This document shows, in pieces, positions 20,997 to 37,662 of a stretch of DNA of 64,000 bases. The stretch's first letter is position 1, and each line of letters begins with the position of its first letter. The notes below the pieces were generated by a model. That model ran no database searches. It saw only the letters and a list, made by a program, of their open reading frames with translations, and was not told the DNA's origin. The translations under genes and the position numbers were made by a program. Origin of the DNA: Paeniglutamicibacter terrestris (lineage in GTDB: Bacteria > Actinomycetota > Actinomycetes > Actinomycetales > Micrococcaceae); the NCBI RefSeq assembly GCF_012271785.1, contig NZ_JAAWVT010000005.1:1-64000 (forward strand). Direction: 5' to 3'.

Positions 20997-21006
20997 ACTT
21001 GAAGCC

Positions 21007-21573: not shown

Positions 21574-21642
21574 CACCCGCTTTTTCGAAAACAGGAGGCC
21601 CGCCCGGCATCGACAGTGATGTCTACGGGTCAGGTTAGTCGA

Positions 21643-21982: not shown

Positions 21983-22124
21983 GACCCCGAATGCCCGGCG
22001 GCTGCTGGACGAACACCCGACGGACATGTTCGCCGCCTCCCCGAGGAACAGCGTCCACGCCCTTGACCACCGCGCCTCTGCGCGCCAGAGATCACGTTCT
22101 TGACCGCGTGGGACGGCGCGGACC

Positions 22125-22431
22125 CTGCTCGCCTGCGGCGCCCTGAAAGAGCTGGACCCCTTGCCCGGGAAGATCAACTCGAGGCATCGCCGCCCGCTTG
22201 CTGGGACGAATCATGGACGAGACGCGCGTCCGCTTCGACGGGTGGCTGTATCTGGAAACGGGAAGCGACGACTTCTTTGCCTTCGCGCGCAGGTTGTATC
22301 GGCGCCACGGCTTCAGGCCGTGCTGGCCCTTCGGTTCCTTTGGCGCGGATCCGGACAGCGTCTTCATAGGAATGAGCCTGGCCGCAAGGGGTTGCGCCGA
22401 CCCGGCGAGTACGGAACGATGGGGTAGATAA
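22125..22431 (+). pseudogene. truncated, frameshifted GNAT acetyltransferase remnant
   Basis: The fragment LACGALKELDPLPGKIN is in one frame. After ~22180 the sequence continues in another frame as RGIAARLLGRIMDETR (acetyl-CoA loop region), LYLETGSDDFFAFARRLY and HGFRPCWPFGSFGADPDSVF. These are the consecutive C-terminal blocks of the common GNAT family with the LYLETGS/GPF/DPNSVFM pattern. The N-terminal half and the IKSM-RTAP segment are missing. The stop overlaps the predicted LacI operator before the GH92 gene. Confidence 0.6.
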
Positions 22432-22443
22432 ATCGATTTATCA
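22426..22443 (+). promoter_or_regulatory. predicted LacI-family operator upstream of GH92
   Basis: AGATAAATCGATTTATCA, containing a perfect 16-bp palindrome (22427-22442) with the central CG usual for LacI-family sites. It matches 15 of 18 bases of the site at 32383-32400 before the sugar ABC operon and 12 of 18 of the site at 31137-31154. It lies ~95 bases before the GH92 start. Confidence 0.65.
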
Positions 22444-22538: not shown

Positions 22539-25500
22539 ATGAGAGTATTAACCGAACTTCAGCGCCTCGGGGGGCCCGGCACTGCCGTCGCAGCGAGGAA
22601 CGGGGTCGGCTTCACCTCGCTCGAGGCCTTCAGAGCGGACGTGGAACAAGGGGCAGGGACCTGTGTGCTGGTGGTACCCGGCGCCCTGGAGAACCGGGTG
22701 ATCCGGGCCGGGGAAGAAATCCAGTGGGTTCTCTTCCCCGAAGGTGCGGGACCCGTGCCCCAGCTCTGGGACGCCACGGCGGCCGCCATCGACATCGAGT
22801 TCACCGACGGAACCCGCCTCAGCGAGCTGGAGGCGACAGACCAGTACGGTGCCGGGCTCGGCCCCGATGCCCAGGCAGCGGCCAAGGCCATGTGGGTCGA
22901 CCAGTGGAACCGCCGCGCGGTGGGGCTGGACGCGGTGATCGGCAAGCAGGTGGCCCGGGTCCTGGCGGTCATCAAGGGATCCGAGCGCACCGACATCCGC
23001 GTCTTCTTCGACGACATCGACATCCACGAGGCCGCCCCGGCGCCGGCCACCGCGCTGGACGCCGTGGTGACCACGCGCGGGACCCAGTCCTCGGACCGCT
23101 TCTCCCGGGGCAACAACGCCCCGCTGGTCGCCGTTCCGCATGGCGGAGTCTTCGGTCTGCCGATGACCAACGCCGCTCGCGGCAACTGGCCCTATTCCTA
23201 CCATGCCGACAACCGGGCAACCGACAACAAGCCGACCATCCAGGCCTTCGCGACCTCCCACATCCCGAGCCCGTGGATGGGGGACCGCGGCGTCTTTCAG
23301 ATCATGCCTAGCCCCCGGGCTGTCCCCGAAGTCTCCCGCGAGGCCCGCGCCCTGGGATTCACCCACGGCGCGGAGCGACCCGGCCCGCACCGCTACGGAG
23401 TCGACCTCGAGGGCGGTCTCAGCGCCGAGCTGACCGCCGGCGCCTTCGCACTGGGCATGCGCTTCACCTTCCCCGGTGACACCGCCTCCATCATCGTCGA
23501 CCACCACGGCACGGTCACCGAAATGCGCACGCGTGCCGATGGCGAAGACCTGGTCCTCGAGGCGCACCTGGATGACCGCGAAAACACGCCCCCGCACTAC
23601 CTGCATGTGCGCATTCCCCGAGCCGCCGGGAACCATCTGCGGCTGGTCGAGGGTCGGCTGCGCGGCTACGTGGGGGCAACCCCGGATGCGCAGGGCCGCG
23701 TGGATGTGTTGCTGGGCATCTCGACCGTCGACTATGCCCAGGCCGCGGCCAACCTCACGGCCGCCGGCGGCTTTGAGACCATGCTGGAATCCTGCCGCGC
23801 GCAGTGGGAGAGCAAGCTTTCCACCCTCGAGGTTGCAGGAGCCAGCGCCGACCAGCTGACTAGCCTGTACTCGGGCCTGTACCGGCTATTCCTGTACCCG
23901 AACCGGGCAGGGGAACCCGGAAGCGATGGCACCAAACGCTACCGCTCGCCCTATGGGGAAGTGCTCACCGAACCGGTCCGGGAGGAACCGGGGGCCGAGA
24001 TCATGGACGGGGAGCTCTCGACCACCAACGGCTTCTGGGATACCTACCGCACGGCCTGGCCGCTGCTGGGTCTGCTCACCCCGGCCGAGGCCGGCGAACT
24101 GGCCCAGGGCTTCGTCCAGCACTTCCACGACGGCGGCTGGACCCCGCGCTGGAGCGCCCCGAGCGCCGAGGACTGCATGACCGGCACCACCAGCGACACC
24201 GTCTTCGCCGACCTGCTGGTCAAGAACGTGCCAGGACTGAAACTGGAAGAGGCCTACGCCTCGGCGGTGAAGAACGCGACGGTGCCGGCCGCGAACCAGA
24301 AGGTCGGGCGCAAGGGAATTCACCCCGGCATTTTCCGCGGCTACATCGACACCGCCACCGGCGAGGGCATGTCCTGGACGCTGGACAACGCCATCAACGA
24401 CTGGGCGCTGGCCCAGATGGCCGCACTGCTGGCCGCCAAGGCATCCGCGGGCTCGGCGGCCGCCGCCCGCTACGGGGCCGAACACGAGTACTTCGCCCGC
24501 CGCTCCCTGAGCTACCGGGAAGTGTTCGACACCGAGCGCGGCTTCTTCATCGGCAGGAACCCCGGCGGGGCCTGGCGCGTGGAAGCCGGATTCGACCCTG
24601 CGGAATGGGGACACGACTACACCGAGACCAATGCCTGGGGCACCGCCTTCACGGTCCCGCACGACGGTGCGGGGTTGGCCGAGCTCCACGGCGGCGAAGC
24701 GGGCCTGGGCCAGGCGCTGGATACCTTCTTCGACACCCCCGAGACCGGGGATGAGTCCAAGTCAGGGTCCTACGGGTTCGCCATCCACGAGATGACCGAG
24801 GCCCGCGATGTGCGCATGGGGATGCTGGGTCTGTCCAACCAGCCCGCCCACCACATCCCGTTCATGTACATGTTTGCCGGCAGGCACGACGACGCGCACC
24901 GGATCGTGCGCGAGGCTATTTCCCGGCTCTTCGTGGGCTCGGACATCGGCCAGGGCTCCCCGGGCGATGAGGATAACGGGGAAATGAGCGGCTGGTACAT
25001 CTTCGCCACCCTCGGTCTCTACCCGCTGGCGCCGGCCTCCGGCAGCTACGTGTTGATCCCTCCGTCAATTGAGCGTGCGGTGCTGCGCCCCACCGGGGGA
25101 GAAGCGATCACCATCGAGGTCACCAATCCCCAGGCGCACGGCAGCTACATCGAATCAATGCGCATCAACGGCCAGGAATGGAACGAGATCTCGGTCCCGC
25201 ACTCCCTGCTGGCTTCCGGCGCGCACCTGGAGTTCACGCTTTGCGCGGAGCCCTCGGGCTGGGCGGCGGAAACACGGCCGGCCTCGGCCTCCGCCCTGCA
25301 CGGGTTCAGCTCGCTGTTGCTCGATGCCACGGCCGGTGCGCGCGCTGTGTCCGGGGTGCCCGGAGCCGGCACCCTGATTGACGACACCGGGGCAACACCC
25401 GTGGTGCTGGGGGCTGGGGACAGCGTTCAGATCGATTTCGTTGCCGGCGCCGCCGTGGATTTATACACGCTCACCGCAGCGGTCCCGGGCAGCCTCGGCT

Positions 25501-25706
25501 GGCGCATCGACCTGTTCGGTGTCGACGGGAAGCCCCTGGCCACCGAGCGGCGCACCACCGAGGAATTCAACTGGGCAGGTCAGACCCGTGTGTTCCGCCT
25601 TGCAGCGGATCTTGGTCAGTCATTCGGTCAGGTGACCGGTTTGCGCTTCACGGCACGCGACGCGATGACCCTGCGGCAGCTGGAGGTCTTCGCTACGGAC
25701 ACCTAA
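22539..25706 (+). CDS. GH92 family alpha-mannosidase, predicted cytoplasmic
   Basis: A 1055-aa glycoside hydrolase family 92 protein. GH92 enzymes are Ca2+-dependent inverting exo-alpha-mannosidases (often alpha-1,2) acting on N-glycans. The hallmark catalytic block GDEDNGEMSGWY lies at 809-820. Other family blocks are FWDTYRTAWPLL, VPHGGVFGLPMTNAARGNWPYSY and GSYGFAIHEMTEARD. The C-terminal ~130 residues form a beta-rich extension resembling an NPCBM-like carbohydrate-binding module. There is no signal peptide, so it should act inside the cell on imported oligosaccharides. A predicted LacI operator lies upstream. It is transcribed alone at the left edge of the glycan locus. Confidence 0.92.
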   Translation: MRVLTELQRLGGPGTAVAARNGVGFTSLEAFRADVEQGAGTCVLVVPGALENRVIRAGEEIQWVLFPEGAGPVPQLWDATAAAIDIEFTDGTRLSELEATDQYGAGLGPDAQAAAKAMWVDQWNRRAVGLDAVIGKQVARVLAVIKGSERTDIRVFFDDIDIHEAAPAPATALDAVVTTRGTQSSDRFSRGNNAPLVAVPHGGVFGLPMTNAARGNWPYSYHADNRATDNKPTIQAFATSHIPSPWMGDRGVFQIMPSPRAVPEVSREARALGFTHGAERPGPHRYGVDLEGGLSAELTAGAFALGMRFTFPGDTASIIVDHHGTVTEMRTRADGEDLVLEAHLDDRENTPPHYLHVRIPRAAGNHLRLVEGRLRGYVGATPDAQGRVDVLLGISTVDYAQAAANLTAAGGFETMLESCRAQWESKLSTLEVAGASADQLTSLYSGLYRLFLYPNRAGEPGSDGTKRYRSPYGEVLTEPVREEPGAEIMDGELSTTNGFWDTYRTAWPLLGLLTPAEAGELAQGFVQHFHDGGWTPRWSAPSAEDCMTGTTSDTVFADLLVKNVPGLKLEEAYASAVKNATVPAANQKVGRKGIHPGIFRGYIDTATGEGMSWTLDNAINDWALAQMAALLAAKASAGSAAAARYGAEHEYFARRSLSYREVFDTERGFFIGRNPGGAWRVEAGFDPAEWGHDYTETNAWGTAFTVPHDGAGLAELHGGEAGLGQALDTFFDTPETGDESKSGSYGFAIHEMTEARDVRMGMLGLSNQPAHHIPFMYMFAGRHDDAHRIVREAISRLFVGSDIGQGSPGDEDNGEMSGWYIFATLGLYPLAPASGSYVLIPPSIERAVLRPTGGEAITIEVTNPQAHGSYIESMRINGQEWNEISVPHSLLASGAHLEFTLCAEPSGWAAETRPASASALHGFSSLLLDATAGARAVSGVPGAGTLIDDTGATPVVLGAGDSVQIDFVAGAAVDLYTLTAAVPGSLGWRIDLFGVDGKPLATERRTTEEFNWAGQTRVFRLAADLGQSFGQVTGLRFTARDAMTLRQLEVFATDT

Positions 25707-25780
25707 CCACCGCCTCCGGAGCGCACCTTGATCATGGCCGGCCGTCGCTCTGGCCCGGAATAGGGGAACATCGGTCTCGA

Positions 25781-26308
25781 CTACACGGGCCGCGCAACAG
25801 AAGGCCGCTGAAACACGAGCAACACGTCGGACACCAAATCGTGGGGGTATTGAACCCACACGATCCCGATGACTCCCACAGAGCTGAGGTGCTGCTCGAA
25901 CACGCGGGTGCAATCGCGGATCAAGTGAGTGGGTCGGCCTCGTGATGCTCCGCGGTCATGTATGGCGGGGAAGTGAGCATGAGGTTGATGCCCGCGTCGG
26001 GTTGGGACGGGGTCATGCGGCGGATGATCCTTAACAGCTCCCGTGCCTCGCCCTCGACCGTGCGTGCTCCGGGCACCCGTCGTTGAAGGTACTCCACGCT
26101 CGGGTAGCAGTTCAATGCCCAGTGCTTCGCGCCCCAGCGCGAGGGAACGCTCGGCCAGAAACGTGTCGTGTGATGCGCTCAGTTGCGAATCCAGTGGTGA
26201 GATCGTGGGTCTACTCTCGATCAATTCTTCTCCACGTCCCTCATCATCCGAAGTGTAGCCGCCGAGCAGCGGCCCCTGACATTTCAGGCATTGGCGAAGA
26301 CCGGACAT
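25781..26308 (-). pseudogene. decayed site-specific DNA methyltransferase gene
   Basis: The minus strand encodes, in one frame, a segment with LAERSLALGREALGIELLPE. The sequence then moves to another frame: VEYLQRRVPGARTVEGEARE followed by INLMLTSPPYMTAEHHEADP, which contains the TSPPY catalytic motif of amino-methyltransferases. That frame stops, and the C-terminal block THLIRDCTRVFEQHL and GIVWVQYPHDLVSDVLLVFQRP resumes in the first frame. The order of blocks is right for one ~220-aa actinobacterial DNA methylase, with at least two frameshifts and a missing middle. No intact partner nuclease is present. Confidence 0.6.
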
Positions 26309-26520
26309 CGAGGCAACGTCATACGCACCGCCATCGAGTCCGCTCCAAGGGGGTGACAGCAGAGCCTGACTGTTACGACAGCCTGAACCTGTCGATTGGG
26401 ACTCTCATCGAGCCAGCTGGGCACGGTGTCGGGGTCGGCTAGATCTACCATCCATCGGTGGACTGCTGGTTGAAGCGCATAGCCCTACCCTCGCACGGCA
26501 AAACTTGCCCGAACGCACCT
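26309..26520. other. intergenic stretch between the methylase remnant and the GH38 terminator
   Basis: About 210 bases with no ORF carrying an RBS or family resemblance. It may hold further decayed N-terminal methylase sequence, but I could not recognise any. Confidence 0.35.
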
Positions 26521-26574
26521 AAAGAAAAGGGCACCTTGTCTTGCAGACCTCTTGGTCCGCAAGACAAGGCGCCC
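26521..26574 (-). terminator. Rho-independent terminator of the GH5-GH38 operon
   Basis: A GC-rich ~21-bp stem with two mismatches (26529-26549 with 26554-26574) and a 4-base loop. Read on the minus strand it is followed by a T-rich run (A-rich 26521-26528 on the plus strand). It lies 18 bases beyond the GH38 stop. Confidence 0.85.
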
Positions 26575-26591
26575 CTGGCTATTTTTGGTGA

Positions 26592-29500
26592 CTAGCCCTT
26601 GAGCTTGAAGCGCAGGGTGCGCACCTCAAAGGCGGTCAACGCAAGGCTCACCGCGCCGTCGGCGAGCTCGGCAACGCCGTCTTCACCCTCAAGGGGATCT
26701 TCCAGCAGGGAGATCGCCGAGGCGCCTGCCACCGGACGGTGCACCTTCACGGTGCCCGCCGCGCGGCGGCCCAGGGACTCATAGACGCGCACGACCAGGT
26801 CGCCGCTCTTGTCCCCGGCCAACTTGACGTTGGAGAGCACGATGCCCTCGCCCTCGACGGTGACCAGCGGGTCAAACCCGTTGGCGCCGTTGATGGTACG
26901 TGCGTCGCTGTTTAGCAACGCACCGGCCTCGGTGGCCGCGGCGATGTCCGCGCCGATGACCAGGCCGTAGCGGTGGCTCTGGATGCCCTGGTCGGTTTCC
27001 GGATCCGGGAAGCGCGGGGCGCGCAGCAGCGAGAGGCGCATATTGGTCATCACCCCGGCCTTGGTGGAATCGCGGGTGACATCGAAACCGTAGATGGAGT
27101 CGTTGATCAGCGCTGCCCCGAAGCCGGGCTCCTCGGCCAGCACGAAGCGGTGCATCGAGGTCTCGAACTTCGCGGCCTCCCAGCTGGTGTTCACGTGGGT
27201 GACGCGCTTGTGGTAACCGAACTGGGTCTCGGCGATCGCGTGCTCGGCACGGATATCCAGCGGGAACGCGACCTTCAGGAACTTCTCGGTCTCGTGCCAG
27301 TCGGTGACCTGCTCAATCTGCAACACCTTGGAGCTCGGGGCGAGGGTCAGTTCCTGGCGCACGGTGGAGGCGGAGAAGCTGCGCTCGATGAGAACGCGGG
27401 CGGTGCCATCGGCATCGGTGGACAGCGTGAGCGAGTCCAGTTCGCGCAGGTCGGTGACCTGGTTGCGGTAGTACTTGTCCACGTCCCAGGCGTCCCACAT
27501 GTTCGGGAAGTCCTGGTGCAGCTGCAACAGGTTGGCCTCGGTGCCCGCGGCAATGCTCTCGCGCCTGGTGGAATGGTCCAGTGCGGAGGTGATCAGGCCT
27601 TCGGCTGAGATGGTGATGGTAACCAGCTCGTTGCTCAGCACGATGCCGTCCGCCGACTCGGTGGCGGTGACCTTGTCGGTGGCCGGGGCCAGCTCGGCCA
27701 CGGCGGCCGCTGAACCGGTGCGCAGGCCCGCACGGGTGAACGGTGCCGCGTTCAGCTGGATCGGGGTGTCTCCCTGGCCAACCAGCAGTGCCTGGGCGCT
27801 GGCGATGATGGCCTCGGCCGCGGCGGTGACCCGTGCGTATTGGACCACTACCTCGCGGTGTACCCAAGCGATAGAGGTACCCGGCAGAATGTCGTGGAAC
27901 TGGTGCAGCAGCACCTGCTGCCACAGCTCGTCGATCTCGTTGTGCGGGTACTCGAAGCCGGCGTACACCGCAGCGGTGGCGGCCCAGAGTTCGGCTTCCA
28001 CTAGCAGATGCTCGGTGCGGCGGTTGCCCTGCTTGGTCTGGTGCTGGGAAGTCAGCGTGGCGCGGTGCAGCTCCAGATAGAGCTCGCCAACCCAGACCGG
28101 TGGGGTGGGCAGCTCGGTCTTGGCGCGCTTGAAGAACTCGTCGGGGTGTTCCCACTTCACGGTGGCGCTGCCTTCGAGGTCGGCCAAGCGGCGCGCCTTG
28201 CCGGTCATCTCACGGGTGGTGCCGCCGCCACCGTCGCCCCAGCCCACCGGTGCAATGGAGCCGGTGGCGTGGCGGGACTCGCGGAACTGGCGCGAGGCGC
28301 GGGCCACCTCTTCGCCGGAGAGCTGCGAGTTATAGGTGTCCATCGACGGGAAGTGGCTGAAGACGCGTGAGCCGTCGATGCCCTCCCAGTTGAAGGTGTG
28401 GTGCGGGAACTTGTTCTGCTGGTTCCAGGAAATCTTCTGCGTGAAGAACCACTCGAAGCCGGCACGGCTCATCAGCTGCGGCAGCGCGGGGGAGTAGCCG
28501 AAGGAATCGGGCAGCCAGACCCCGGCGCAGGTGACGCCGAATTCCTCGCGGAAGAACTTCTGGCCGTAGTAGAACTGGCGGACCAGTGATTCGCCCGAGG
28601 GCATGACGGTGTCGGATTCGACCCACATGCCGCCCAGCGGCAAGAAGCGCCCTGCGGCAACTGCCTCCTTGACGCGGGCATAGACCTCGGGGCGGTTGTC
28701 CTTCATCCATGCGTACTGCTGGGCGCTTGACATGCCGTAGAGGAAGTCCTCGTCAACGCCGAGCAGCTCGACCATGGAGGAAGAGGTGCGCGAGACCTTA
28801 CGGATGGTTTCGCGCACCGGCCAGAGCCAGGCGGAGTCGATGTGGGCGTGGCCCACGGCGGAGATGCGGTGCGCGGACTCGTCGGCGCGCTTGGAAAGCA
28901 CCTCGACCAATTCGGCGCGGGCCGCCGGTGCGGTCTCGGTGATGCGCTGCAGATCCAGCACGTCAAGGGAGTTGTCCATGGCCTGCAGGATGCGCATGCG
29001 GCGCGGGCCCTCGGGCAGCTCGGCCTGCAGTTCCAGCAGCACCTCGAGGTCCAGCGAGAGTTCGTGGACCTCGGGCTCGAAGATCGCTAGGTCCATGCGG
29101 CGGGTGGTGTAGAGCTTGCGCGAGGAGGAGGTCTGGATGTCTCCCTCGGTGGTGGGCAGGAACGGGTGGTAGTCCAGCAGTACCGGGTTCGCGGCTGCCT
29201 CGATGAAGTAGTCGATTTCCTCCCCGCCCTCGGCAACGTCCACGCCCGGGATCCACTGGTTGCGCGGGTTGATCGACTTCACGGTGATGCCGTCGGCGCG
29301 GTAGACCAAGCCCTCACATTGGAAGCCTGGCATGTTCTTGTCGAAACCCAGGTCCACGAGGACCTCGATACGCTTGCCGGACCATTCGGCCGGGACCGTG
29401 CCGCGCAGGCGGAACCACGTGGTGCCCCAGGCTGCGCCCCAGATGGTTCCGACCGAATAATCGGTGTATTCAAGGCCCATGGCCTCGGCCGGGGCGATCG

Positions 29501-29624
29501 GCTCGCCAGGGAGTTCGTGCCACTGGATGTCCAGCGGGAGAGATACGGGGTGGATGGCTGGGCGGATGCGTTCTTCGAGGACCCGCTTGACGCGTCCGAG
29601 GGTCAAGGGAATGTCGTCATGCAT
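26592..29624 (-). CDS. GH38 family alpha-mannosidase, predicted cytoplasmic
   Basis: A 1010-aa glycoside hydrolase family 38 enzyme (Zn2+-dependent retaining alpha-mannosidase). The metal-binding block GHAHIDSAWLWP is at ~258-269, and the likely nucleophile Asp373 sits in GVWLPDSFGYSPALP. The N-terminal beta domain and the C-terminal beta-sandwich domains are present at full bacterial length. A GAAAGG RBS lies 7 bases before ATG 29624; an in-frame start 24 codons earlier is less likely. There is no signal peptide. It follows the GH5 gene by 90 bases on the same strand and ends at a strong terminator. Expected role: removal of alpha-1,3/1,6-mannoses from imported glycans, working with GH92. 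Confidence 0.94.
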   Translation of the reverse strand: MHDDIPLTLGRVKRVLEERIRPAIHPVSLPLDIQWHELPGEPIAPAEAMGLEYTDYSVGTIWGAAWGTTWFRLRGTVPAEWSGKRIEVLVDLGFDKNMPGFQCEGLVYRADGITVKSINPRNQWIPGVDVAEGGEEIDYFIEAAANPVLLDYHPFLPTTEGDIQTSSSRKLYTTRRMDLAIFEPEVHELSLDLEVLLELQAELPEGPRRMRILQAMDNSLDVLDLQRITETAPAARAELVEVLSKRADESAHRISAVGHAHIDSAWLWPVRETIRKVSRTSSSMVELLGVDEDFLYGMSSAQQYAWMKDNRPEVYARVKEAVAAGRFLPLGGMWVESDTVMPSGESLVRQFYYGQKFFREEFGVTCAGVWLPDSFGYSPALPQLMSRAGFEWFFTQKISWNQQNKFPHHTFNWEGIDGSRVFSHFPSMDTYNSQLSGEEVARASRQFRESRHATGSIAPVGWGDGGGGTTREMTGKARRLADLEGSATVKWEHPDEFFKRAKTELPTPPVWVGELYLELHRATLTSQHQTKQGNRRTEHLLVEAELWAATAAVYAGFEYPHNEIDELWQQVLLHQFHDILPGTSIAWVHREVVVQYARVTAAAEAIIASAQALLVGQGDTPIQLNAAPFTRAGLRTGSAAAVAELAPATDKVTATESADGIVLSNELVTITISAEGLITSALDHSTRRESIAAGTEANLLQLHQDFPNMWDAWDVDKYYRNQVTDLRELDSLTLSTDADGTARVLIERSFSASTVRQELTLAPSSKVLQIEQVTDWHETEKFLKVAFPLDIRAEHAIAETQFGYHKRVTHVNTSWEAAKFETSMHRFVLAEEPGFGAALINDSIYGFDVTRDSTKAGVMTNMRLSLLRAPRFPDPETDQGIQSHRYGLVIGADIAAATEAGALLNSDARTINGANGFDPLVTVEGEGIVLSNVKLAGDKSGDLVVRVYESLGRRAAGTVKVHRPVAGASAISLLEDPLEGEDGVAELADGAVSLALTAFEVRTLRFKLKG

Positions 29625-29714
29625 GAATGCCTTTCGCCGGACCCAAGGCCCGGTGGGGATAGATCTGTTCCAAAAATGAAGGCTGGGGGAGTGCACGGCA
29701 CCAAGGGCCGCAGG

Positions 29715-31085
29715 TCAGATGGCGCTGCCGGCCGAGACCTCCCTGGTAGTCAGCACCGTGGTGATGCCGCGGGCGGCGAGGAAAGAGGCATCGCCTGCTT
29801 GTGATGCAAGGATAACCGACGGTCGTGCCCCATCCATGGCAAGGGACATCCAGGCCTCGAAGAAAGCCCCGCCGGGCTCGCAGGTGGCCCTTCCCGGGGC
29901 AAGGGTCTCGTCCCCAACTTCTAGCACCAGGGCGGTGCTGCGCCGAGCCGGGGCCGGTGCGGTCCGCACCTCGGCGGCCACCTTGGCAAAGGCGTGTCCC
30001 TGCGGCTTGATGGTGCGGTCGTTGCCGATCAGTCCCAGCGAGTATTCCAGGGACGGGAAATCCGCCAGCGCGGTATCCACGTCGTGGGAGGACCACCATG
30101 TGACGCCCCAGAGGTTTTCGGTGTCCAGCGCGTACTTCAGCGATCCTTCGAGGAATGCCGGGGCGTCCTCGGCCGAGACATGTGGTGCTGGCGCGCCGAT
30201 TTCCTGCAACCAGATGGGTCGGTTCGGGTCGGTGGACCAGCCGCGGCCCAGTTCGATGAGGTATTCGGCCAGGCGCAGGGATTGCTCGCTCATGCCCCCG
30301 TAAAGCTTGGAGGTGCCGTTGAAGATCCAGGAGTGGATGGTGGTGGAGTGTCCGCGGCGCGCGGCCAGGGCCGGGGTGAAGCTGTGCTCGCCGCCGAACC
30401 AGCACATGTCGTACTCGGAGTGGTGGTGTTCTAGGCCCGGGGCACCCGCCGCGCAGGCCGCAAGCATGGTGCTGATCCAGGTGTCGGCCTGGGCAACGGT
30501 GAGTTCGCTGCGGTTGGGGTGCAGCGGGGAGGCGAACTGGCTAAATTCGTTGCCGATGCTCATGCCCAGGAAGTTGGGGCGCCCGGCCAGGGTGGAGGCG
30601 ATGGCCTCGAGGTAGGCCGACTGCCCCTCGATCACCAGCTCCGAGGTGAACAGGTTCTGCTGGTGCCAGGTTTGGGCCCACGCAGGAACGTAGTCGAAGG
30701 AGGACAGGTGACCCTGCAGTCCGTCGACACTGACATCCAGGCCGCGTTCGGCCGCGGCGTCCACGACGGCGGCCAGGTCGGCCAGGGCCTGCGGGCGGAT
30801 GAGGCTGCGGTTGGGCTGGAATACCGGCCAGAGGGCGAAAGCCCGGATGTGGTCGGCTCCGAGTTCAGCGATGCTGTCCAGGTCTCGGGAGACCTGGTCG
30901 ATGTCGAAGTCGAGCCAGTGGTGGAACCAGCCGCGGGTGGGGGTGTAGTTCACGCCGAAGCGCAGCGGGGCCCCGCCGCGCTGCACGGGCGTGGTGTCGG
31001 CAGAAAAGTCCTGGAGAATCCTGTTGCTCAATGGGTGCCCTGTTCTGAGTGAAGCACGGTCAGGTGGAGTCATCGAGGGTTTCAT
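29715..31085 (-). CDS. GH5-like beta-mannosidase, resembling subfamily GH5_18
   Basis: A 456-aa clan GH-A (TIM barrel) hydrolase. The acid/base Glu180 is in MSIGNEFSQF and the nucleophile Glu295 in PIWLQEIGAPA. The FGVNYTPTRGWFHHWLDFD opening and HIRAFALWPVFQPN resemble the GH5_18 enzymes of bifidobacteria, which split Man-beta-1,4-GlcNAc from N-glycan cores. No signal peptide is seen. The start is uncertain: ATG 31085 or 31073 lack an RBS, while a TTG at 31031 has AGGG ~6 bases upstream. The residue numbers assume 31085. A predicted LacI operator is at 31137-31154. It is co-directional with GH38. The subfamily is inferred from memory and context. Confidence 0.8.
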   Translation of the reverse strand: MKPSMTPPDRASLRTGHPLSNRILQDFSADTTPVQRGGAPLRFGVNYTPTRGWFHHWLDFDIDQVSRDLDSIAELGADHIRAFALWPVFQPNRSLIRPQALADLAAVVDAAAERGLDVSVDGLQGHLSSFDYVPAWAQTWHQQNLFTSELVIEGQSAYLEAIASTLAGRPNFLGMSIGNEFSQFASPLHPNRSELTVAQADTWISTMLAACAAGAPGLEHHHSEYDMCWFGGEHSFTPALAARRGHSTTIHSWIFNGTSKLYGGMSEQSLRLAEYLIELGRGWSTDPNRPIWLQEIGAPAPHVSAEDAPAFLEGSLKYALDTENLWGVTWWSSHDVDTALADFPSLEYSLGLIGNDRTIKPQGHAFAKVAAEVRTAPAPARRSTALVLEVGDETLAPGRATCEPGGAFFEAWMSLAMDGARPSVILASQAGDASFLAARGITTVLTTREVSAGSAI

Positions 31086-31136
31086 GGCGGAGCGGCAGTG
31101 CCGGCACGTCGCCGGGCATGGTCCGGACTCGCCCGA

Positions 31137-31154
31137 AACTAATACGATTTAGTA
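31137..31154 (-). promoter_or_regulatory. predicted LacI-family operator upstream of the GH5-GH38 operon
   Basis: On the plus strand AACTAATACGATTTAGTA, a CTAAnnCGnnTTAG palindrome. It matches 13 of 18 bases of the ABC-operon site and 12 of 18 of the GH92 site, all sharing CGATTTA. It lies about 50 bases upstream of the GH5 gene, between it and lacI. Confidence 0.55.
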
Positions 31155-31193
31155 AGAACCGTACACGGGCAATCCGGATTCTGTAAAGATGGC

Positions 31194-32231
31194 CTAGGTG
31201 TCGTGCCTGTGGGGCCCTGCTGTGCTGCCGCGAACCGTCAAGGTTGGGGCTGCCGCGGCAATGTCCAGCGCCACGTCCTTGCCCGAAATGATCTCCAGCA
31301 ACGCACCGACCACTTGCTCGCCCAGCGCGAAGGTGTCGCGGGTCAGTGACGTGATTCCCGGGTAGACCAGGCTGGTGAGCGCCGAGTCGTCGAAGGCGAC
31401 GATGGAGATGTCATCGGGTACAGATACTCCCATTTCCCGCGTCACCCCGGAACCCGCGACGGCCATGACGTCGCTGTCGTAGACGATGGCCGTGGGCCGG
31501 TCCTTGCGCTGCGACAGGATCCGCCGGGTGATCGAGGCGCCCTGTGAATCGCTGAAGTCGGTGGTGTAGGAAACCGCGGATTCGAGGCCGAATTCCTCGA
31601 TTGCGTCCTGCACTGCCGCCATGCGGCGCTGGGTGTGCACGAATCCCGGGATGCCGGCAACGTGGGCGATCCTGCGGTGTCCCAGGGTGGCCAGATAGGA
31701 CATGATGGTCATCATGGCCTCGCGGTCATCGGTCCACACGGCAGGGATGTTGCTGTGTTCAGTGGGCCCGCCAATGAGGATTGCGGGCATCTGCTGGGCC
31801 TCCAACACGGGAATCCGCGGGTCGTTCTCGTGCAGGTCGATGAGGATCCAGCCGTCGACGCGGTGTTCGTTCCACCAGTGTTTGTAGGTGCGGATTTCCG
31901 CCTCGGTGTCTTCGACGATCAGCATGTGCAGGGCAATCTCCGAGCGCGAGAGGCCGGCTTGGACCCCGGAGATCAGTTGCGCAAAGAACGGTTCCACGCC
32001 TAGGGTGCGGGCGGGGCGGGCGATGACGAACCCCACGACGTCGCTGCGGGCATCACGAAGGGCTCGCGCCGCATTGTTGGGTCGCCACTGCATCTCGTCG
32101 GCAATGCGCAAGATCCGGGCACGTGTTTCCTCGCTGACGCCGGGTCGCCCGTTCAGGGCAAATGACACGGCCCCACTCGAAACGCCGGCCGCGCGGGCGA
32201 TATCGCTGATGGTGGTGCGCTGTCTAGGCAT
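31194..32231 (-). CDS. LacI-family transcriptional regulator
   Basis: A 345-aa regulator. The N-terminal LacI helix-turn-helix and hinge (TTISDIARAAGVSSGAVSFA through RPNNAARALR) are followed by a periplasmic-binding-protein-like effector domain with VDGWILID, LGHRRIAHVAGI and VPDDISIVAFDDS. It sits between the GH5-GH38 operon (same strand) and the divergent sugar ABC operon, the usual place for the local repressor. Three similar CG-centred palindromes before the locus promoters are its candidate operators. The effector is probably mannose, GlcNAc or a Man-GlcNAc oligosaccharide (inference). Confidence 0.93.
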   Translation of the reverse strand: MPRQRTTISDIARAAGVSSGAVSFALNGRPGVSEETRARILRIADEMQWRPNNAARALRDARSDVVGFVIARPARTLGVEPFFAQLISGVQAGLSRSEIALHMLIVEDTEAEIRTYKHWWNEHRVDGWILIDLHENDPRIPVLEAQQMPAILIGGPTEHSNIPAVWTDDREAMMTIMSYLATLGHRRIAHVAGIPGFVHTQRRMAAVQDAIEEFGLESAVSYTTDFSDSQGASITRRILSQRKDRPTAIVYDSDVMAVAGSGVTREMGVSVPDDISIVAFDDSALTSLVYPGITSLTRDTFALGEQVVGALLEIISGKDVALDIAAAAPTLTVRGSTAGPHRHDT

Positions 32232-32382
32232 GTAAGTCGCGTCCTTCGAAAATCATTTTCACCGATTTGTAGCGGTGGAGACCAGTTTTAGTGGTTTTTT
32301 AGCTACTTTGCTTATCCAACCATAGAATTGTCCGTGGATTAAGCCTTGACAGCCACAGTGCGGTGTGGAAACTTTACTCAAG

Positions 32383-32400
32383 AGCTATAACGATTTATCA
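32383..32400 (+). promoter_or_regulatory. predicted LacI-family operator of the sugar ABC operon
   Basis: AGCTATAACGATTTATCA. It matches the GH92 site at 15 of 18 positions. A TTGACA -35 box at 32346-32351 with a weak -10 around 32370-32375 places this site over the likely transcription start, as expected for a repressor site. Confidence 0.65.
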
Positions 32401-32481
32401 CGAAGTTTTCCACCCGTAGGTGTTCATAGGTGCCCTTGGCCAATCGCCGGTCGCCTGACGTTTTTAAATAGGAGATCCCTC

Positions 32482-33756
32482 ATGCGACGACGCATATCGC
32501 TGGCCATGGCCGCATCCGCGGCACTGCTGGCCCTGACTGCATGCACCGGCGGCGGACAAACCGCACCGGTGCAGACCGGCGGCGGAGAAATCACCGGCGA
32601 AGTCAGCCTGCAGACCTGGTCGCTGACGCCGAAGTTCACCGACTTCCTCAACGAGACGGTCGCTGCGTTCGAGAAGGAATACCCCGGAACCAAAGTCAAG
32701 CTCATTGACCAGCCGGGTGACGGCTACTCCGACAAGGTACTCACCCAGGCCGCATCGGGTACTTTGCCCGACGTGGTGAACCTTCCGCCGGACTTCGCCT
32801 TGCCGCTGGTCGGACAGAAGATGCTGCTGGATGTCTCCACGGTCGACCCGACCCTCGAGCAGACCTACATCCCCGGCTCCCTGGCGGCGTACCAGTTCCG
32901 CGGTTCAGAAGGCACCTACGCCTACCCGTGGTACCTGAATACCGATGTGAACTACTGGAACACCGACAAGCTAGAGAAGTGTGGACTGGACCCGGCCAAG
33001 GTTCCGGCCACGACCTCCGAGCTCTTCGAGCAGGCAGCGATCATGCACGAAGCCTGCCCCAAGGAATACCTGCTCAGCCGTAAGCCGGGCCTCGGCGACC
33101 TGGCCCTGTCCGGTGCACCGATCCTCAGCGAAGACGGAACCAAGTTCGAGTTCAACACCCCGGAAGCCGCAGCGTTGGTCGACCAGTACGCCCAGGCCTT
33201 CCAAAAGGGACTGATGCCCTCCTCGGTTCTCTCCAGCGACTACCTGGGCAACTCCTTGCTCTTCACCAAGGGCGAAGTTGCCTGGACCACCGGCGGCGCC
33301 ACCTCCATCCCGGACTTCGAGCGCGACAACCCCAGCCTCAAGGGCTCGGTAGTTGCTAGCCCCGCCTTGGACATCTCCCCGCTCTATGCGCAGGGCCTGT
33401 CGGTCTCCGCGAATTCCAAGAACCAGGCCACGGCCGTGGCACTGGCGAAGTGGATGACCAACGCCAAGAACCAAGCCGCGTTTGCCCACCTGGTCAATGT
33501 CTTCCCCTCCACCATCGAATCGGCCGAGGACCCATTCTTCTCCAAGAGCGACGGAACAGCTTCCAGTGATTCCAAGGTCATTGCCTTCAAGGCACTCGAG
33601 ACGGCAAAAAACATGCAGCCGTACGAGGTGAATAGCGCCATGAGCGATTACGCCGGGCAGCAGATCGCCTTGGCCATCCGCGGCGACATCTCCAGCCAAG
33701 ACGCACTGGACAAGGCAGTCGAACGCCTCAACGAAATGCTCGAACGCCAGAAGTAG
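32482..33756 (+). CDS. sugar ABC transporter, substrate-binding lipoprotein (SBP family 1)
   Basis: A 424-aa lipoprotein with signal and lipobox ALTAC (Cys21), then a family 1 extracellular solute-binding domain (QTWSLTPKFTDFLNETVAAF; TLPDVVNLPPDF; YPWYLNTDVNYWN). An AGGAG RBS at 32470-32474 fixes ATG 32482. It is the first gene of a rightward operon with two CUT1 permeases, a GH18 enzyme and a GlcNAc kinase-like gene, so the likely ligand is the Man(n)GlcNAc product of the GH18 enzyme (inference). The predicted LacI operator lies ~80 bases upstream. Confidence 0.93.
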   Translation: MRRRISLAMAASAALLALTACTGGGQTAPVQTGGGEITGEVSLQTWSLTPKFTDFLNETVAAFEKEYPGTKVKLIDQPGDGYSDKVLTQAASGTLPDVVNLPPDFALPLVGQKMLLDVSTVDPTLEQTYIPGSLAAYQFRGSEGTYAYPWYLNTDVNYWNTDKLEKCGLDPAKVPATTSELFEQAAIMHEACPKEYLLSRKPGLGDLALSGAPILSEDGTKFEFNTPEAAALVDQYAQAFQKGLMPSSVLSSDYLGNSLLFTKGEVAWTTGGATSIPDFERDNPSLKGSVVASPALDISPLYAQGLSVSANSKNQATAVALAKWMTNAKNQAAFAHLVNVFPSTIESAEDPFFSKSDGTASSDSKVIAFKALETAKNMQPYEVNSAMSDYAGQQIALAIRGDISSQDALDKAVERLNEMLERQK

Positions 33757-33833
33757 CCGCAGCTTTCCGGTGGAGGGGCCAAACCCCGGGCCCGCCGTCC
33801 TTAGCACGCGCCTTATAAGAAAGTCTGCACACT

Positions 33834-34715
33834 ATGAAGACTAAAAGCTGGATCAGCCCCTGGCTGTTCGTCGCCCCCGCATTGCTATGGCTCGGAGTAT
33901 TCAGTTTCTGGCCGTCCATCAACACCATCATCCTGGCGTTCACCAACGCCAAGCCGCTTGGCGGGGATGTGGAATTCGTTGGGCTCAGCAACTTCTCGTA
34001 CATGTTCCGCGACCCTCAGCTGATGAATGCTTTGCTCAACAGCCTAGTCTTCATGCTCATCTGCCTGCCCCTGCTGACCATCCTGCCGCTGCTGATCGCG
34101 ATGCTGTTGGAAAAGAAGTTGAAGGGCATTTCCTTCTTTCGCACTGCCTTCTACACCCCGGTGATCGCCTCGGCCGTGGTCGTCGCACTGATCTGGACCT
34201 GGCTGCTTGACGAGCAGGGCTTGGTCAACAACATGGCCCAGGCCCTGGGCCTCATCACCGAGCCCATCCCGTTCCTGACTGACCGCTGGCTGGTCATTTT
34301 CAGCGCCATCAGCCTGACGGTGTGGAAGGGGCTTGGCTACTACATGATCATTTACCTGGCTGCCCTGGCCAACGTCAGCAAGGACCTGCACGAGGCAGCC
34401 GCCATGGACGGGGCCGGCCCGATCCGCCGCTTCTGGTCGGTCACGGTTCCGGGGGTGCGCAACACCATGGCACTGATCGCCGTGCTGGTCTGCGTCTCGG
34501 CACTGCGCGTTTTCTCCGAGCTCTACATCCTCACCGGCGGCTCCGGTGGACCCGGCGGCGAAGCGATGTCGATCGTCATGCTGATCCAACAGTACGCCCG
34601 CGGCTTCGCGGGTGACCTGGGGTACGCGTCGGCGTTGAGCCTCCTGCTCTTTGCCGTGACCCTGGTGCCGCTGCTCATCCTGGGCAAAATCAACAAGAAG
34701 GTGAACGAATCATGA
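33834..34715 (+). CDS. sugar ABC transporter permease (CUT1, MalF type)
   Basis: A 293-aa permease with six helices. Family features are SWISPWLFVAPALLWLGVFSFWP at the N-terminus, FFRTAFYTPVIASAVVVALIW and the EAA loop LHEAAAMDGAGPIRRFWSVTVPGV. It overlaps the next permease gene by 4 bases. It pairs with the downstream MalG-type subunit. No ATPase is encoded nearby, so it presumably uses a shared MsiK/MsmX-like ATPase encoded elsewhere. Confidence 0.94.
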   Translation: MKTKSWISPWLFVAPALLWLGVFSFWPSINTIILAFTNAKPLGGDVEFVGLSNFSYMFRDPQLMNALLNSLVFMLICLPLLTILPLLIAMLLEKKLKGISFFRTAFYTPVIASAVVVALIWTWLLDEQGLVNNMAQALGLITEPIPFLTDRWLVIFSAISLTVWKGLGYYMIIYLAALANVSKDLHEAAAMDGAGPIRRFWSVTVPGVRNTMALIAVLVCVSALRVFSELYILTGGSGGPGGEAMSIVMLIQQYARGFAGDLGYASALSLLLFAVTLVPLLILGKINKKVNES

Positions 34716-35650
34716 GCACCCCCAACAGCACCCTCGAAGAAACCCGGAAGGCACCCGAGGCCGCCGCGACTGAGGCCAAAAAGAAAGCCGGGCGCAAGCC
34801 CAAGCGCGGCTTCAGCAGCATCGGGACCATGTCCCCGACCGAGAAGTGGATCCGCTACGTCCTGCTGATCGTCGTGCTGCTGATCTGCATCGGGCCGTTC
34901 CTATGGGAGTTCTCCACCTCGCTCAAGGGCGCCGACGAGGACATCTACACCGATGTTCCCTCGTTCTTCCCCGCCAGCCCCACGATCGATAACTACATCC
35001 GGGCTTTCATGGCCGTGCCGATCTTCTCCTTCATCGGCAACTCCCTGTTCGTCGCCGCGGTGGGAGTCACCGGCAACATCGTCTTCGCCACGCTGGCCGG
35101 CTACGCCATTGCGCGCCTGAAGTTCCGCGGCTCCAAGATCGTGTTGGGCCTGCTGCTTGCCTCGCTGATCCTGCCCGGCGAGGCAACCATCGTTTCCCAG
35201 TTCCTGCTGGTGAGCGAACTCGGCCTAGCCGACACCCTGCTCGGCGTTGCACTGCCAGGCATGGTCGCGCCGTTGAACGTGCTCTTGATGTACAACGCCT
35301 TCCGCGTCATGCCCGAGGAACTGGACCAGGCAGGGGTCATCGACGGCGCCAACGCCTGGCAGCGATTGTGGCACATCGGCGTCCCCTCGGTGCGCGGCAC
35401 CATCGCCGTGGTGGCGATCTTCTCCTTCATCGGCGCGTGGGACGACTTCCTGTGGCCGCTGATCGTGTTGACCACCCCGGAAAACTTCACCCTGACCATC
35501 GGCCTGCAGTACCTCGCCGGAACCTTCGCCACCGATCAGCGGCTCATCGCCGCCGGTGCCATGATCGCGTTCATCCCGATCGCCATCGTCTTTGCCGTCC
35601 TGCAGCGCCACTTCTTCAAGGGCGTCGAGGAAGGCGGAGTCAAGGGCTAG
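34712..35650 (+). CDS. sugar ABC transporter permease (CUT1, MalG type)
   Basis: A 312-aa permease with a charged ~45-residue N-terminal cytoplasmic extension (Lys/Glu/Ala-rich, longer than usual), then six helices. It includes IGPFLWEFSTSLKGADED and the EAA loop MPEELDQAGVIDGANAWQRLWHIGVPSV. It overlaps the preceding permease gene by 4 bases. A T-tailed hairpin (35678-35710) follows, so transcription into the GH18 gene may be reduced. Confidence 0.94.
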   Translation: MSTPNSTLEETRKAPEAAATEAKKKAGRKPKRGFSSIGTMSPTEKWIRYVLLIVVLLICIGPFLWEFSTSLKGADEDIYTDVPSFFPASPTIDNYIRAFMAVPIFSFIGNSLFVAAVGVTGNIVFATLAGYAIARLKFRGSKIVLGLLLASLILPGEATIVSQFLLVSELGLADTLLGVALPGMVAPLNVLLMYNAFRVMPEELDQAGVIDGANAWQRLWHIGVPSVRGTIAVVAIFSFIGAWDDFLWPLIVLTTPENFTLTIGLQYLAGTFATDQRLIAAGAMIAFIPIAIVFAVLQRHFFKGVEEGGVKG

Positions 35651-35677
35651 ACACGCCCAACTCTTCGTTCCAAGGCT

Positions 35678-35710
35678 GGGACCGCCACAAGAAGTGGCGG
35701 TCCCGTTTTC
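35678..35710 (+). terminator. terminator/attenuator between the ABC permease and GH18 genes
   Basis: An 11-bp perfect GC-rich stem (35678-35688 with 35694-35704), a 5-base loop, then GTTTTCC. It probably lowers expression of the downstream GH18-kinase pair or ends part of the ABC transcript. Confidence 0.75.
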
Positions 35711-35733
35711 CAACCAAAGGAGTTAGACCCCGC

Positions 35734-36720
35734 ATGTCCAAGCAAAACCTCCGGAGCCTTTCCGCCATCGCCTCCACAGCACTGCTCGCCGGGACCATCG
35801 CCCTGGCAGCTCCGCTGGCGGCCAACGCCGGGCCAACCGCCCAGGCCCCCACTGCGGCCACGGCACAGCCAGCCCCGGCCGACGGCACCGATACCCGCCG
35901 CACGGTCCTGTACTACCAAACCCAGTACCACGAGGGAACGTACGTTTCTCCGCTGCCGATGGTCCAGCGCCAGACCGGATTGACCGACCTGATCGTCGGG
36001 GCCATCCACGTCAACGAGACTCCCGGGGAGATCCGGCTGAACGACGACCTTCCCGCGGATGCCAAGTTCAACCGGATGTGGGACGAGCTCGGAACCATGC
36101 AGGATGCCGGTGTCGATGTGATCGGCATGCTCGGAGGTGCAGCCCGCGGGACCTTCGACCGCCTGGATCTGGACACCTTCGACACCTACTACCCGCACCT
36201 GCGCGAGATGGTGCAGACCTACGGGCTGGATGGACTGGACCTTGACGTTGAGGAAGACATGTCCCTGCCCGGGGTCATCAACCTGATCGACCAGCTCAAG
36301 GCCGACTTCGGCGAGGACTTCATCATCACTCTGGCCCCGGTGGCCACCGCACTGAAGGGCGGGACCAGCATCTCCGGGTTCAACTACGATGAGCTGTACG
36401 CAGCACGCGGCGCCGACATCGAGTGGTTCAACACGCAGTTCTACTGCGGCTGGGGAACCCTGGAAACAACCGCCGGCTACGACGCCATCATGGATTACGG
36501 CGTTTACCCGGCGGACAAGGTTGTTGCCGGAACGCTCACCGACCCGAGCCTATGCAGGGGGTACGTTGAGGTGGATACATTGGCCAAGACCGTCAAGGAG
36601 CTGAGTAACAAGTACCCGGAATTCGGCGGGGTCATGGGGTGGGAGTACTTCACCTCCCAGCCGGGCGGCACCACTAAGCCCTGGAAATGGGCGGAGATCA
36701 TCACCAAGGCGATGCGCTAG
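35734..36720 (+). CDS. secreted GH18 endo-beta-N-acetylglucosaminidase-like enzyme
   Basis: A 328-aa protein with a Sec signal peptide (~1-32, cleavage near ANA-G) and an Ala/Pro/Thr-rich linker to ~50. A glycoside hydrolase family 18 barrel follows. The catalytic DxxDxDxE motif is complete at 166-173 (DGLDLDVE), followed by FIITLAPVATAL. GH18 includes chitinases and N-glycan endo-beta-N-acetylglucosaminidases. The short single-domain form and the mannosidase-rich neighbourhood favour the latter, which cuts between the two core GlcNAc residues. An AAAGGAG RBS (35716-35722) precedes the ATG. This is the only clearly secreted hydrolase of the locus. Confidence 0.85.
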   Translation: MSKQNLRSLSAIASTALLAGTIALAAPLAANAGPTAQAPTAATAQPAPADGTDTRRTVLYYQTQYHEGTYVSPLPMVQRQTGLTDLIVGAIHVNETPGEIRLNDDLPADAKFNRMWDELGTMQDAGVDVIGMLGGAARGTFDRLDLDTFDTYYPHLREMVQTYGLDGLDLDVEEDMSLPGVINLIDQLKADFGEDFIITLAPVATALKGGTSISGFNYDELYAARGADIEWFNTQFYCGWGTLETTAGYDAIMDYGVYPADKVVAGTLTDPSLCRGYVEVDTLAKTVKELSNKYPEFGGVMGWEYFTSQPGGTTKPWKWAEIITKAMR

Positions 36721-36744
36721 CATCCGGCACGAGAAGGAATATCC

Positions 36745-37662
36745 ATGAGCAACACCGGGCAGACCCCGTTGGCCCTGGTGGGCCTAGACATTGGCGGCAC
36801 CAAGACGCACGCCATGCGCTGGAGTGGTGAAACGAAGCTCGCCGAGGCCAAGAGCGGCAGTGCCAACGTCCAGAACGTCAGTGTCGAGACCGCCAAGGCC
36901 AATATCGCCGAGGTATTCGCGGCGCTCGGGGCCGGCCATATCGACCGGGTCGTGGCCGGTGCCGGAGGCATCGACACCGAGTCGGACGCCGAGTTCCTGC
37001 GGTCCCTGATCGCGAGCCATGCCCCAGGCGCCGAGATCCTCGTGGTCCACGACACCCGGCTGATCCTGGCTGCGGGCCATGCCTCCACCGGCATGGCAGT
37101 GATCCTGGGCACCGGTTCGGCTGCCTGGGGCGTCAATGCCGAGGGCAAGGAGGGTCGGGCCGGGGGCTGGGGGTACCTGCTGGGGGACGAGGCCAGCGGC
37201 TACTGGATGGGGCGTGAAGCGGTGCGCCACACGCTTCGCGAGTTCAACCGGGGACAAGTTCCCGGCGAGCTGGGCCGCCGAGTGCTTGATGCCAACAACG
37301 TGGAATCCCCGGATGAGCTGATCGCGCTGTTCCACGGCGACACCGACCGCCGCTACTGGGCCCAGCAGTCCCCGCTGGTCTTCGAGGCCCTGCTGGCCGG
37401 GGACTCGGACAGCGCGGTGATCGTCGGGGAGGCGGTCAGGCACGTGTGCCGGATGCTCGGAGACCTCTCCGCCCTGCTGGAAACCAACGGACCTGTCATC
37501 ATCGGCGGTGGCGTGGGAACGCACCAGCCGGTCTTCCAGGAGAAACTGCGGGTGGCAATGGGTGCCATCGGGCTTGTTGACATCCGTTTTCTGGCCCTTG
37601 ACCCGGTGGAGGGGACGAAGTTCATTTCCGATCTCAGCCCCTTGCCCGCAAAAAACACCTAG
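36745..37662 (+). CDS. BadF-type N-acetylglucosamine kinase-like protein
   Basis: A 305-aa ASKHA-fold sugar kinase. The phosphate-1 loop GLDIGGTKTHAM, the GTGSAAWGVNAEG phosphate-2 loop, LLGDEASGYWMG and the adenosine motif IIGGGVG match the BadF/BadG/BcrA/BcrD ATPase family, which includes GlcNAc kinase. It lies 24 bases after the GH18 gene with an AAGGA RBS. Phosphorylating GlcNAc released from the glycan core by the GH5 enzyme would complete the pathway (inference). A 13-bp hairpin follows. Confidence 0.88.
   Translation: MSNTGQTPLALVGLDIGGTKTHAMRWSGETKLAEAKSGSANVQNVSVETAKANIAEVFAALGAGHIDRVVAGAGGIDTESDAEFLRSLIASHAPGAEILVVHDTRLILAAGHASTGMAVILGTGSAAWGVNAEGKEGRAGGWGYLLGDEASGYWMGREAVRHTLREFNRGQVPGELGRRVLDANNVESPDELIALFHGDTDRRYWAQQSPLVFEALLAGDSDSAVIVGEAVRHVCRMLGDLSALLETNGPVIIGGGVGTHQPVFQEKLRVAMGAIGLVDIRFLALDPVEGTKFISDLSPLPAKNT

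Follow-up and report, generated by a model that had tools for sequence, protein, structure and literature searches.

The first 64,000 nucleotides of contig NZ_JAAWVT010000005.1 of Paeniglutamicibacter terrestris (the whole stretch is termed here the window) carry a nine-gene locus that is very probably a regulated utilization system for high-mannose N-glycans. It encodes mannosidases of glycoside hydrolase (GH) families 92, 38 and 5, a LacI-family regulator, the sugar-binding protein (SBP) and two permeases of a CUT1-type ATP-binding cassette (ABC) importer, a GH18 enzyme and a BadF-type sugar kinase. Comparison with related genomes indicates that the locus is a mosaic built around a resident pair of GH38 and kinase genes, and this is the new aspect here. 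There is good support for a locus that is real, ordinary in kind and informative in its mosaic make-up. A preliminary description of the sequence had called the same nine genes; all are open reading frames with family matches and intact catalytic motifs (Table 1).

In the proposed pathway, the secreted GH18 would cleave the chitobiose core of high-mannose glycoproteins, which in soil are probably of fungal or plant origin, and release Man(n)GlcNAc (Man, mannose; GlcNAc, N-acetylglucosamine). The lipoprotein SBP and the two permeases would import this glycan, presumably drawing energy from a MalK/MsiK-type ATPase that is shared with other importers and whose gene is not part of the locus. In the cytoplasm, the GH92 would take off α-1,2 mannoses and the GH38 α-1,3/1,6 mannoses, the GH5 would then cleave Man-β-1,4-GlcNAc, and the kinase would phosphorylate the freed GlcNAc and/or mannose. 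LacI would repress the importer operon and GH92 via a common palindromic operator until bound by a glycan fragment.

The GH18 protein is predicted to be an endo-β-N-acetylglucosaminidase (ENGase) of the Endo T (fungal B-V) type, remote from known chitinases. The DxxDxDxE motif, correctly described before as intact, reads DGLDLDVE (residues 166–173). The best solved relatives are ChiC of Aspergillus fumigatus (2y8v, 281 bits) and Trichoderma Endo T (4ac1, 260 bits), with the next GH18 far behind at 42 bits. Identity to Endo T extends over 130 of 272 aligned residues (48%), and an AlphaFold model (mean pLDDT 86) gives a TM score of 0.90 to 4ac1 by target length, with 0.88–0.89 for ChiC. The Endo T active-site residues Y12, D129, E131, Y195 and W259 correspond to Y60, D171, E173, Y237 and W303, by an alignment whose numbering was shifted by 4 by hand and with D171 counted from the motif line. 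Endo T and Endo FV have high-mannose structures as targets, and members of the B-V cluster, of which four are actinobacterial (including P. acnes, Kribbella flavida and Microbacterium testaceum), are frequently misannotated as chitinase (PMC3408457; the papers cited here by PMC number are represented by portions of their text). A relative of the GH18 is also present outside the Actinobacteria, in Thermosporothrix hazakensis of the Chloroflexota (L094; 44% identical).

The GH18 fold and motif are common to chitinases, 2y8v is itself deposited as a chitinase, and the kinase is NagK-like. This raises the question of whether the locus serves chitin or chito-oligosaccharides, with a GH18 chitinase, an importer for chitobiose, a GlcNAc kinase and incidental mannosidases. 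However, solved GH18 chitinases outside the Endo T/2y8v group reach no more than 42 bits, three mannosidase families are present in the locus, and the position that GH18 occupies behind the importer is shared in relatives with GH85. A genome search found no GH20 and no GH85 (GH3 β-N-acetylglucosaminidases were not searched for). The chitin reading is highly improbable, and was rejected mainly on the GH18 score gap, the co-occurrence with GH5_18, the slot sharing with GH85, the synteny of named loci and the lack of a GH20 match.

Membership of the GH5 protein in subfamily GH5_18, features of which had been noticed earlier, is firm. Nine GH5_18-type sequences among solved structures score 351–548 bits, the closest being ScGH5_18 (7lr7, 548 bits), followed among others by BlMan5B (6mp2, 386) and 6gvb (351), and the next GH5 (7bob) scores 62. 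The glutamates E180 (in GNE; Ala in the mutant 7lr8) and E295 (in WLQE) are present, and we take these to be the acid/base and nucleophile pair. The enzyme is a predicted cytoplasmic β-mannosidase that would cleave Man-β-1,4-GlcNAc. The GH38 protein has all GH38 domains and is closest to the 7ufr group (798 bits), which is presumably of Bifidobacterium longum origin, and then to Ams1; the catalytic Asp is represented by D397 in LPDSFGY, which aligns with a position occupied by Ala in 7ufu. A cytoplasmic enzyme of the Ams1/7ufr type is predicted, and the genome search revealed no second GH38 besides the locus copy. The nearest solved relative of the GH92 protein is 7nsn (721 bits). The +1 triad (W246/H750/E751), the acid (E696) and the bases (D810/D812) are all present, and the residues stated to determine α-1,2 specificity are taken from PMC10167667. 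The enzyme of that paper is equated with 7nsn because Glu944, Trp477, His996 and Glu997 align on the correct letters. GH92 is predicted to be a cytoplasmic exo-α-1,2-mannosidase.

The preliminary description held that GH18 alone among the enzymes is exported, and that GH92, GH38 and GH5 are cytoplasmic. A simple hydrophobicity scan of the N-termini agrees with this prediction: export-type N-termini are seen in GH18 and in the binding protein, but not in GH92, GH38 or GH5. The locations bear on a broader reading, in which fungal or yeast α-mannan or O-mannosylated protein is the target and the N-glycan core is just one substrate of several. The GH92 is closest to 7nsn, a Neobacillus enzyme used on yeast α-mannan and fungal O-glycans (PMC10167667), and Endo T and Endo FV are active on fungal and yeast high-mannose structures (PMC3408457). 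But a GH92 in which no signal is seen would not come into contact with polymeric mannan, and a β-mannosidase together with an endoglycosidase suits the N-glycan core (no search was made for endo-mannanases of GH76 and GH99). The broader target is considered quite unlikely.

With respect to the importer, an AlphaFold model of the binding protein searched with Foldseek shows the oligosaccharide-binding-protein fold. Sequence and fold searches yield general oligosaccharide-binding proteins only, and the matches listed (35 by sequence and 50 by fold) do not include the NgtS entries of pneumococcus (5swa, 5swb). Man(n)GlcNAc is the predicted ligand. None of the nine genes encodes an importer ATPase. 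One OB_MalK-type ATPase gene was found genome-wide, on another contig, and one phosphomannose isomerase gene and two glucosamine-6-phosphate-isomerase-type genes are also located elsewhere in the genome; the term ‘self-contained’ used in the preliminary description is therefore too strong.

That description also proposed a GlcNAc kinase. The BadF type holds, but specificity for GlcNAc does not follow. The protein scores 76 bits against the curated NagK model NF046058, where the cut-off is 370, and among structures a GlcNAc/MurNAc kinase (8zo3, 98 bits) and a hexokinase (2e2n, 91 bits) are matched. Mannose, or both sugars, appears as likely a substrate as GlcNAc, because the hexokinase scores nearly equal, the kinase gene stands beside GH38 without GH5 in three of six congeners, and in the Arthrobacter-type genome G182 a BadF-family kinase gene is followed by a phosphomannose isomerase gene.

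Two proposed LacI-type operators were found in the window at ≤3 mismatches, where 0.07 are expected, and the palindrome at 22427 is the sole site genome-wide with no mismatch. LacI probably binds both. The whole-genome scan at ≤3 mismatches shows nine places, two in the locus and seven outside. About 4.7 are expected from the window shuffle rate, and a reversed-pattern control gave 1; a wider regulon is not claimed. A site with ≤5 mismatches to the importer operator of the window precedes the SBP gene in 15 of 18 relatives, a set that includes near-duplicates, and nine have one at ≤4. The other three (L078, L085, L096) show no operator upstream of the chosen SBP start, but GCTATACCGGTTTATC is found near the importer start in all of them. 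A wrong choice of start probably explains these cases.

A survey of gene neighbourhoods across the Micrococcaceae, which the preliminary description had suggested as a check, supports one pathway. In 295 genomes, GH5 gave 42 matches at E 0.001, and 36 GH5_18-grade genomes remain after six weak ones were set aside. GH18 gave nine matches of any kind, four of them weak, which leaves five at ≥362 bits. All five Endo T-type GH18 genomes are among the 36, and have GH18 within ~18 kb of GH5. The chance of such an overlap is 2e-5 by simple counting and 2e-4 without the window's own genome, relatedness being ignored in both. The similarity to Endo T and this genomic company of N-glycan genes sustain the earlier placement of GH18 in an N-glycan pathway. 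Nine of the 36 genomes have a GH85, and none of these nine has this GH18 as well, although by itself the non-overlap is not significant (0.21).

Gene order, which is more informative, was compared in 19 importer loci (12 Micrococcaceae genomes, six named loci and the window). The gene that follows permease B encodes an Endo T-type GH18 in eight (the window, G164, five Kribbella loci and Streptomyces sp. SID13031), a GH85 in five (G097, G114, G054, G026 and G008; one open reading frame was checked), a GH5 in five (G182, G047, G019, G153 and G091) and a GH92 in one (G274). Two endoglycosidase families thus share one slot. The order GH38-GH5-LacI-SBP-permease A-permease B-endoglycosidase is common to G164, G097, G114, G026 and G008, and the LacI gene of relatives adjoins GH5 or SBP. 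GH92 is matched in 16 of the 36 genomes (in G113 by fragments only). It is within ~20 kb of GH5 in nine (the window, G182, G091, G047, G019, G274, G153, G221 and G269), and is further away or on a different contig in the rest. The G274 locus also has another GH18 beside GH92 (L041 1607–2815), with a weak match to the EndoS TIM barrel (21.4 bits, cut-off 27), and a ROK kinase.

The mosaic make-up emerges from the chromosomal site, which lies between a PurN-type gene (20962–21573) and a PurH gene (42133–43800). At the site in six congeners, GH38 is found in four (G190, G168, G141, G126; 83–86% DNA identity) and the kinase as well in three of these (G190, G141, G126). None of the six has a match there to GH5, the importer, GH18 or GH92. 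A 7-kb GH5-LacI-importer-GH18 cassette occupies the GH38-kinase gap, because homology to the congeners ends at 29640–29656, immediately upstream of the start proposed for GH38, and sets in again at 36667–36708 on the kinase side; in G168 it sets in only at a major facilitator superfamily (MFS) gene. GH92 with ~0.9 kb of non-homologous DNA is a second insert, between ~21.98 and 26.59 kb. The protein identities tell the same story. The window GH38 is 84–86% identical to those of congeners and 72% to that of G182, but shares 51% identity with the G164 and G097 proteins. The window GH5 is 67% identical to that of G164, 66% to that of G097 and 48% to that of G182. These conflicting nearest relatives argue for a mosaic. 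Gain of the cassette in the window lineage would be more economical than 14 losses in the congeners. The cassette donor was not found, the best matches being GH5 at 68% (G238), SBP at 64% (G164) and GH18 at 61% (Actinacidiphila, Streptomyces sp. 8L); permease A reaches 77% over part of its length (G182) and 73% in a longer match.

The nearest congener, G111 (flanks 94–95% identical), has ~2.5 kb of other DNA at the site and its GH38 elsewhere in the genome. This DNA contains an open reading frame of 474 amino acids (L106 5737–7161) that by eye resembles a DUF222/HNH (13E12-type) protein, so the stretch between purN and purH could be a hot spot for insertions.

Might the locus then consist of two neighbouring but separate systems, in which a resident GH38-kinase pair acts on simple α-mannosides and an N-glycan cassette has landed beside it without being functionally linked to it so far? 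In keeping with this, four of the six congeners have GH38 at the site, three of them along with the kinase, and lack the GH5, importer and GH18 genes there, and GH38 and GH5 differ in their closest relatives. However, the pathway could not be completed without GH38, whose locus copy is the sole one found in the genome, and G164, G097, G114, G026 and G008 have GH38 in the same order with the cassette genes. Two unjoined systems are rather unlikely. In a more far-reaching view, the pathway may have been pieced together by an exchange of parts. A ready-made set of GH5_18, LacI, importer and a secreted endoglycosidase of fungal type, together with its operator, would move between actinobacterial families and land by a resident GH38-kinase pair, whereby an α-mannoside degrader becomes an N-glycan eater. 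GH92 would be recruited via the same operator, and the position after the permeases would be a true exchange slot for an Endo T-type GH18 or a GH85, with the EndoS-like GH18 placed elsewhere in one such locus. The arguments for and against this scenario seem to us evenly balanced.

Several findings, besides the deposition of 2y8v as a chitinase, weigh against the proposed N-glycan pathway or its assembly by parts exchange. GH5 is absent from all 14 congeners searched (one genome is 88% complete), which leaves the window genome as the only one of 15 in the genus to have it. G111 and G180 have neither GH38 nor kinase matches at the site, which slightly weakens the case for assembly on a resident pair. 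No protein with a known ligand is closely related to the binding protein. The operators with five mismatches (six of the 18 relatives) are weak individually, as 2.5–8.5% of shuffles equal them. Three of the nine GH85 genes (G047, G019, G091) are distant from GH5, and that of G115 adjoins GH38. Among 25 named loci with this type of GH18, several of which have short flanks available, six have GH5 and importer, one has a weak permease/LacI match only and 18 have neither; A. silviterrae, one of the 18, has GH92 adjoining GH18 and GH5 ~18 kb off. Since these 18 show no GH5 or importer match in their flanks, the Endo T-type GH18 also lives outside N-glycan-type loci. The six named loci have no GH38 match in the 4–5 kb beyond GH5, and their GH5 is 40–43% identical. 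Lastly, no signal is seen at the start chosen for GH18 in either A. silviterrae or G269, so these two enzymes may act intracellularly. In both (L066 1540–2418 and L081 9965–10837 for G269 and A. silviterrae), GH18 and the adjoining GH92 are on opposite strands.

The preliminary description considered the combination of functions little described, but publications already describe similar loci in Cutibacterium acnes and bifidobacteria, and G182 combines the same functions in the order GH18-LacI-SBP-permease A-permease B-GH5-GH38-GH92-BadF kinase-phosphomannose isomerase (the kinase is too distant to match that of the window in a sequence search). Gut and soil actinobacterial N-glycan loci reportedly have a common GH5_18 core, a point attributed to Higgins in 2021. 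Locus 1 of C. acnes contains GH38, GH5_18, GH20, GH18, an importer and a regulator (PMC6160142). It resembles the window in having GH38 and GH5_18, the binding protein and permeases of a sugar ABC importer, a regulator and a GH18 proposed as an endoglycosidase, but it has in addition GH20 and an ATPase gene, whereas GH92, which in the text available is not mentioned, and the BadF kinase are particular to the window (PMC6160142). The P. acnes GH18 that was placed in the ENGase cluster (PMC3408457) is probably the GH18 of this locus. Bifidobacterium imports the glycan whole and trims it intracellularly, and the high-mannose cluster of B. longum has an external endoglycosidase and internal GH38 enzymes as well; it differs in having three GH38 and a GH125, where the window has GH92 and one GH38 (PMC10154615). 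As in the window, a GH5_18 is present in B. longum, and its BlMan5B has the solved structure noted above.

Streptococcus pneumoniae also has GH92, GH38, a kinase (of the ROK type), an ABC importer and an endoglycosidase, but the endoglycosidase is the GH85 EndoD, and the locus table has GH125, GH20 and GH29 and no GH5 (PMC5215778). There GH92 acts ahead of EndoD, and importer and EndoD are away from the locus (PMC5215778). Bacteroides thetaiotaomicron has a GH18 endoglycosidase and intracellular GH92 enzymes; uptake is of the SusD type, and a CUT1 importer and GH5_18 are not described in the portions of text available (PMC10154615, PMC11180146). No title or abstract opening among the literature matches listed describes such a Micrococcaceae locus; most subscription journals were outside coverage, and absence from print is not claimed. 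The described N-glycan foraging systems considered here are mostly those of gut or pathogenic bacteria, and here the genome is of a soil type. In addition, the endoglycosidase belongs to a type familiar from fungi, and relatives suggest that it is an exchangeable part. The locus supplies enzyme candidates for use in deglycosylation and gives grounds for re-annotating Endo T-type bacterial ‘chitinases’.

Table 1. Genes and proposed operators of the N-glycan locus in the window.
Feature	Position	Strand	Basis and remarks
Proposed LacI-type operator, perfect 16-bp palindrome GATAAATCGATTTATC	22427..22442	.	ends 96 bases upstream of GH92
GH92	22539–25706	+	open reading frame; PF07971, 394 bits
GH38 α-mannosidase	26592–29696	-	PF01074, 303 bits; true start probably ATG 29624
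GH5	29715–31085	-	Pfam Cellulase 22.1 bits, under the 23.5 cut-off; 548 bits to ScGH5_18
LacI-family regulator	31194–32231	-	PF00356 and PF13377
Proposed LacI-type operator GCTATAACGATTTATC	32384..32399	.	LacI/SBP intergenic; similar sites precede the SBP gene of relatives
CUT1 sugar-binding lipoprotein (SBP)	frame 32365–33756, true start probably 32482	+	Pfam match; lipobox LTAC by eye
Sugar ABC permease A	33834–34715	+	PF00528; UgpA-like, below cut-off
Sugar ABC permease B	34712–35650	+	PF00528; UgpE/MalG-like, below cut-off
GH18, predicted secreted, Endo T (B-V) type	frame 35368–36720, true start probably 35734	+	Sec-like signal; Endo T alignment
BadF/NagK-type sugar kinase (GlcNAc and/or mannose)	36745–37662	+	family match

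GH92 alone points rightward at its end of the locus, GH38, GH5 and LacI are read leftward, and the SBP, permease, GH18 and kinase genes rightward. GH38 and GH5 are 18 bases apart, the permease genes overlap by 4, GH18 and the kinase gene are separated by 24 and GH92 and GH38 by 885. The GH38 start was counted by hand from the sequence. The largest open reading frame in the 885-base gap (25707–26591) is without a Pfam match, and a short frame at 25921–26115 has a TSPPY stretch that resembles DNA methylases by eye; perhaps it is mobile-element debris. On the other side of GH92, the open reading frame at 21635–22177 has no Pfam match, and the one at 22198–22431 resembles by eye the C-terminal part of an acetyltransferase. 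The DNA at 21660–21983 is similar to that of congeners, and the region upstream of GH92 looks like a decayed resident gene.

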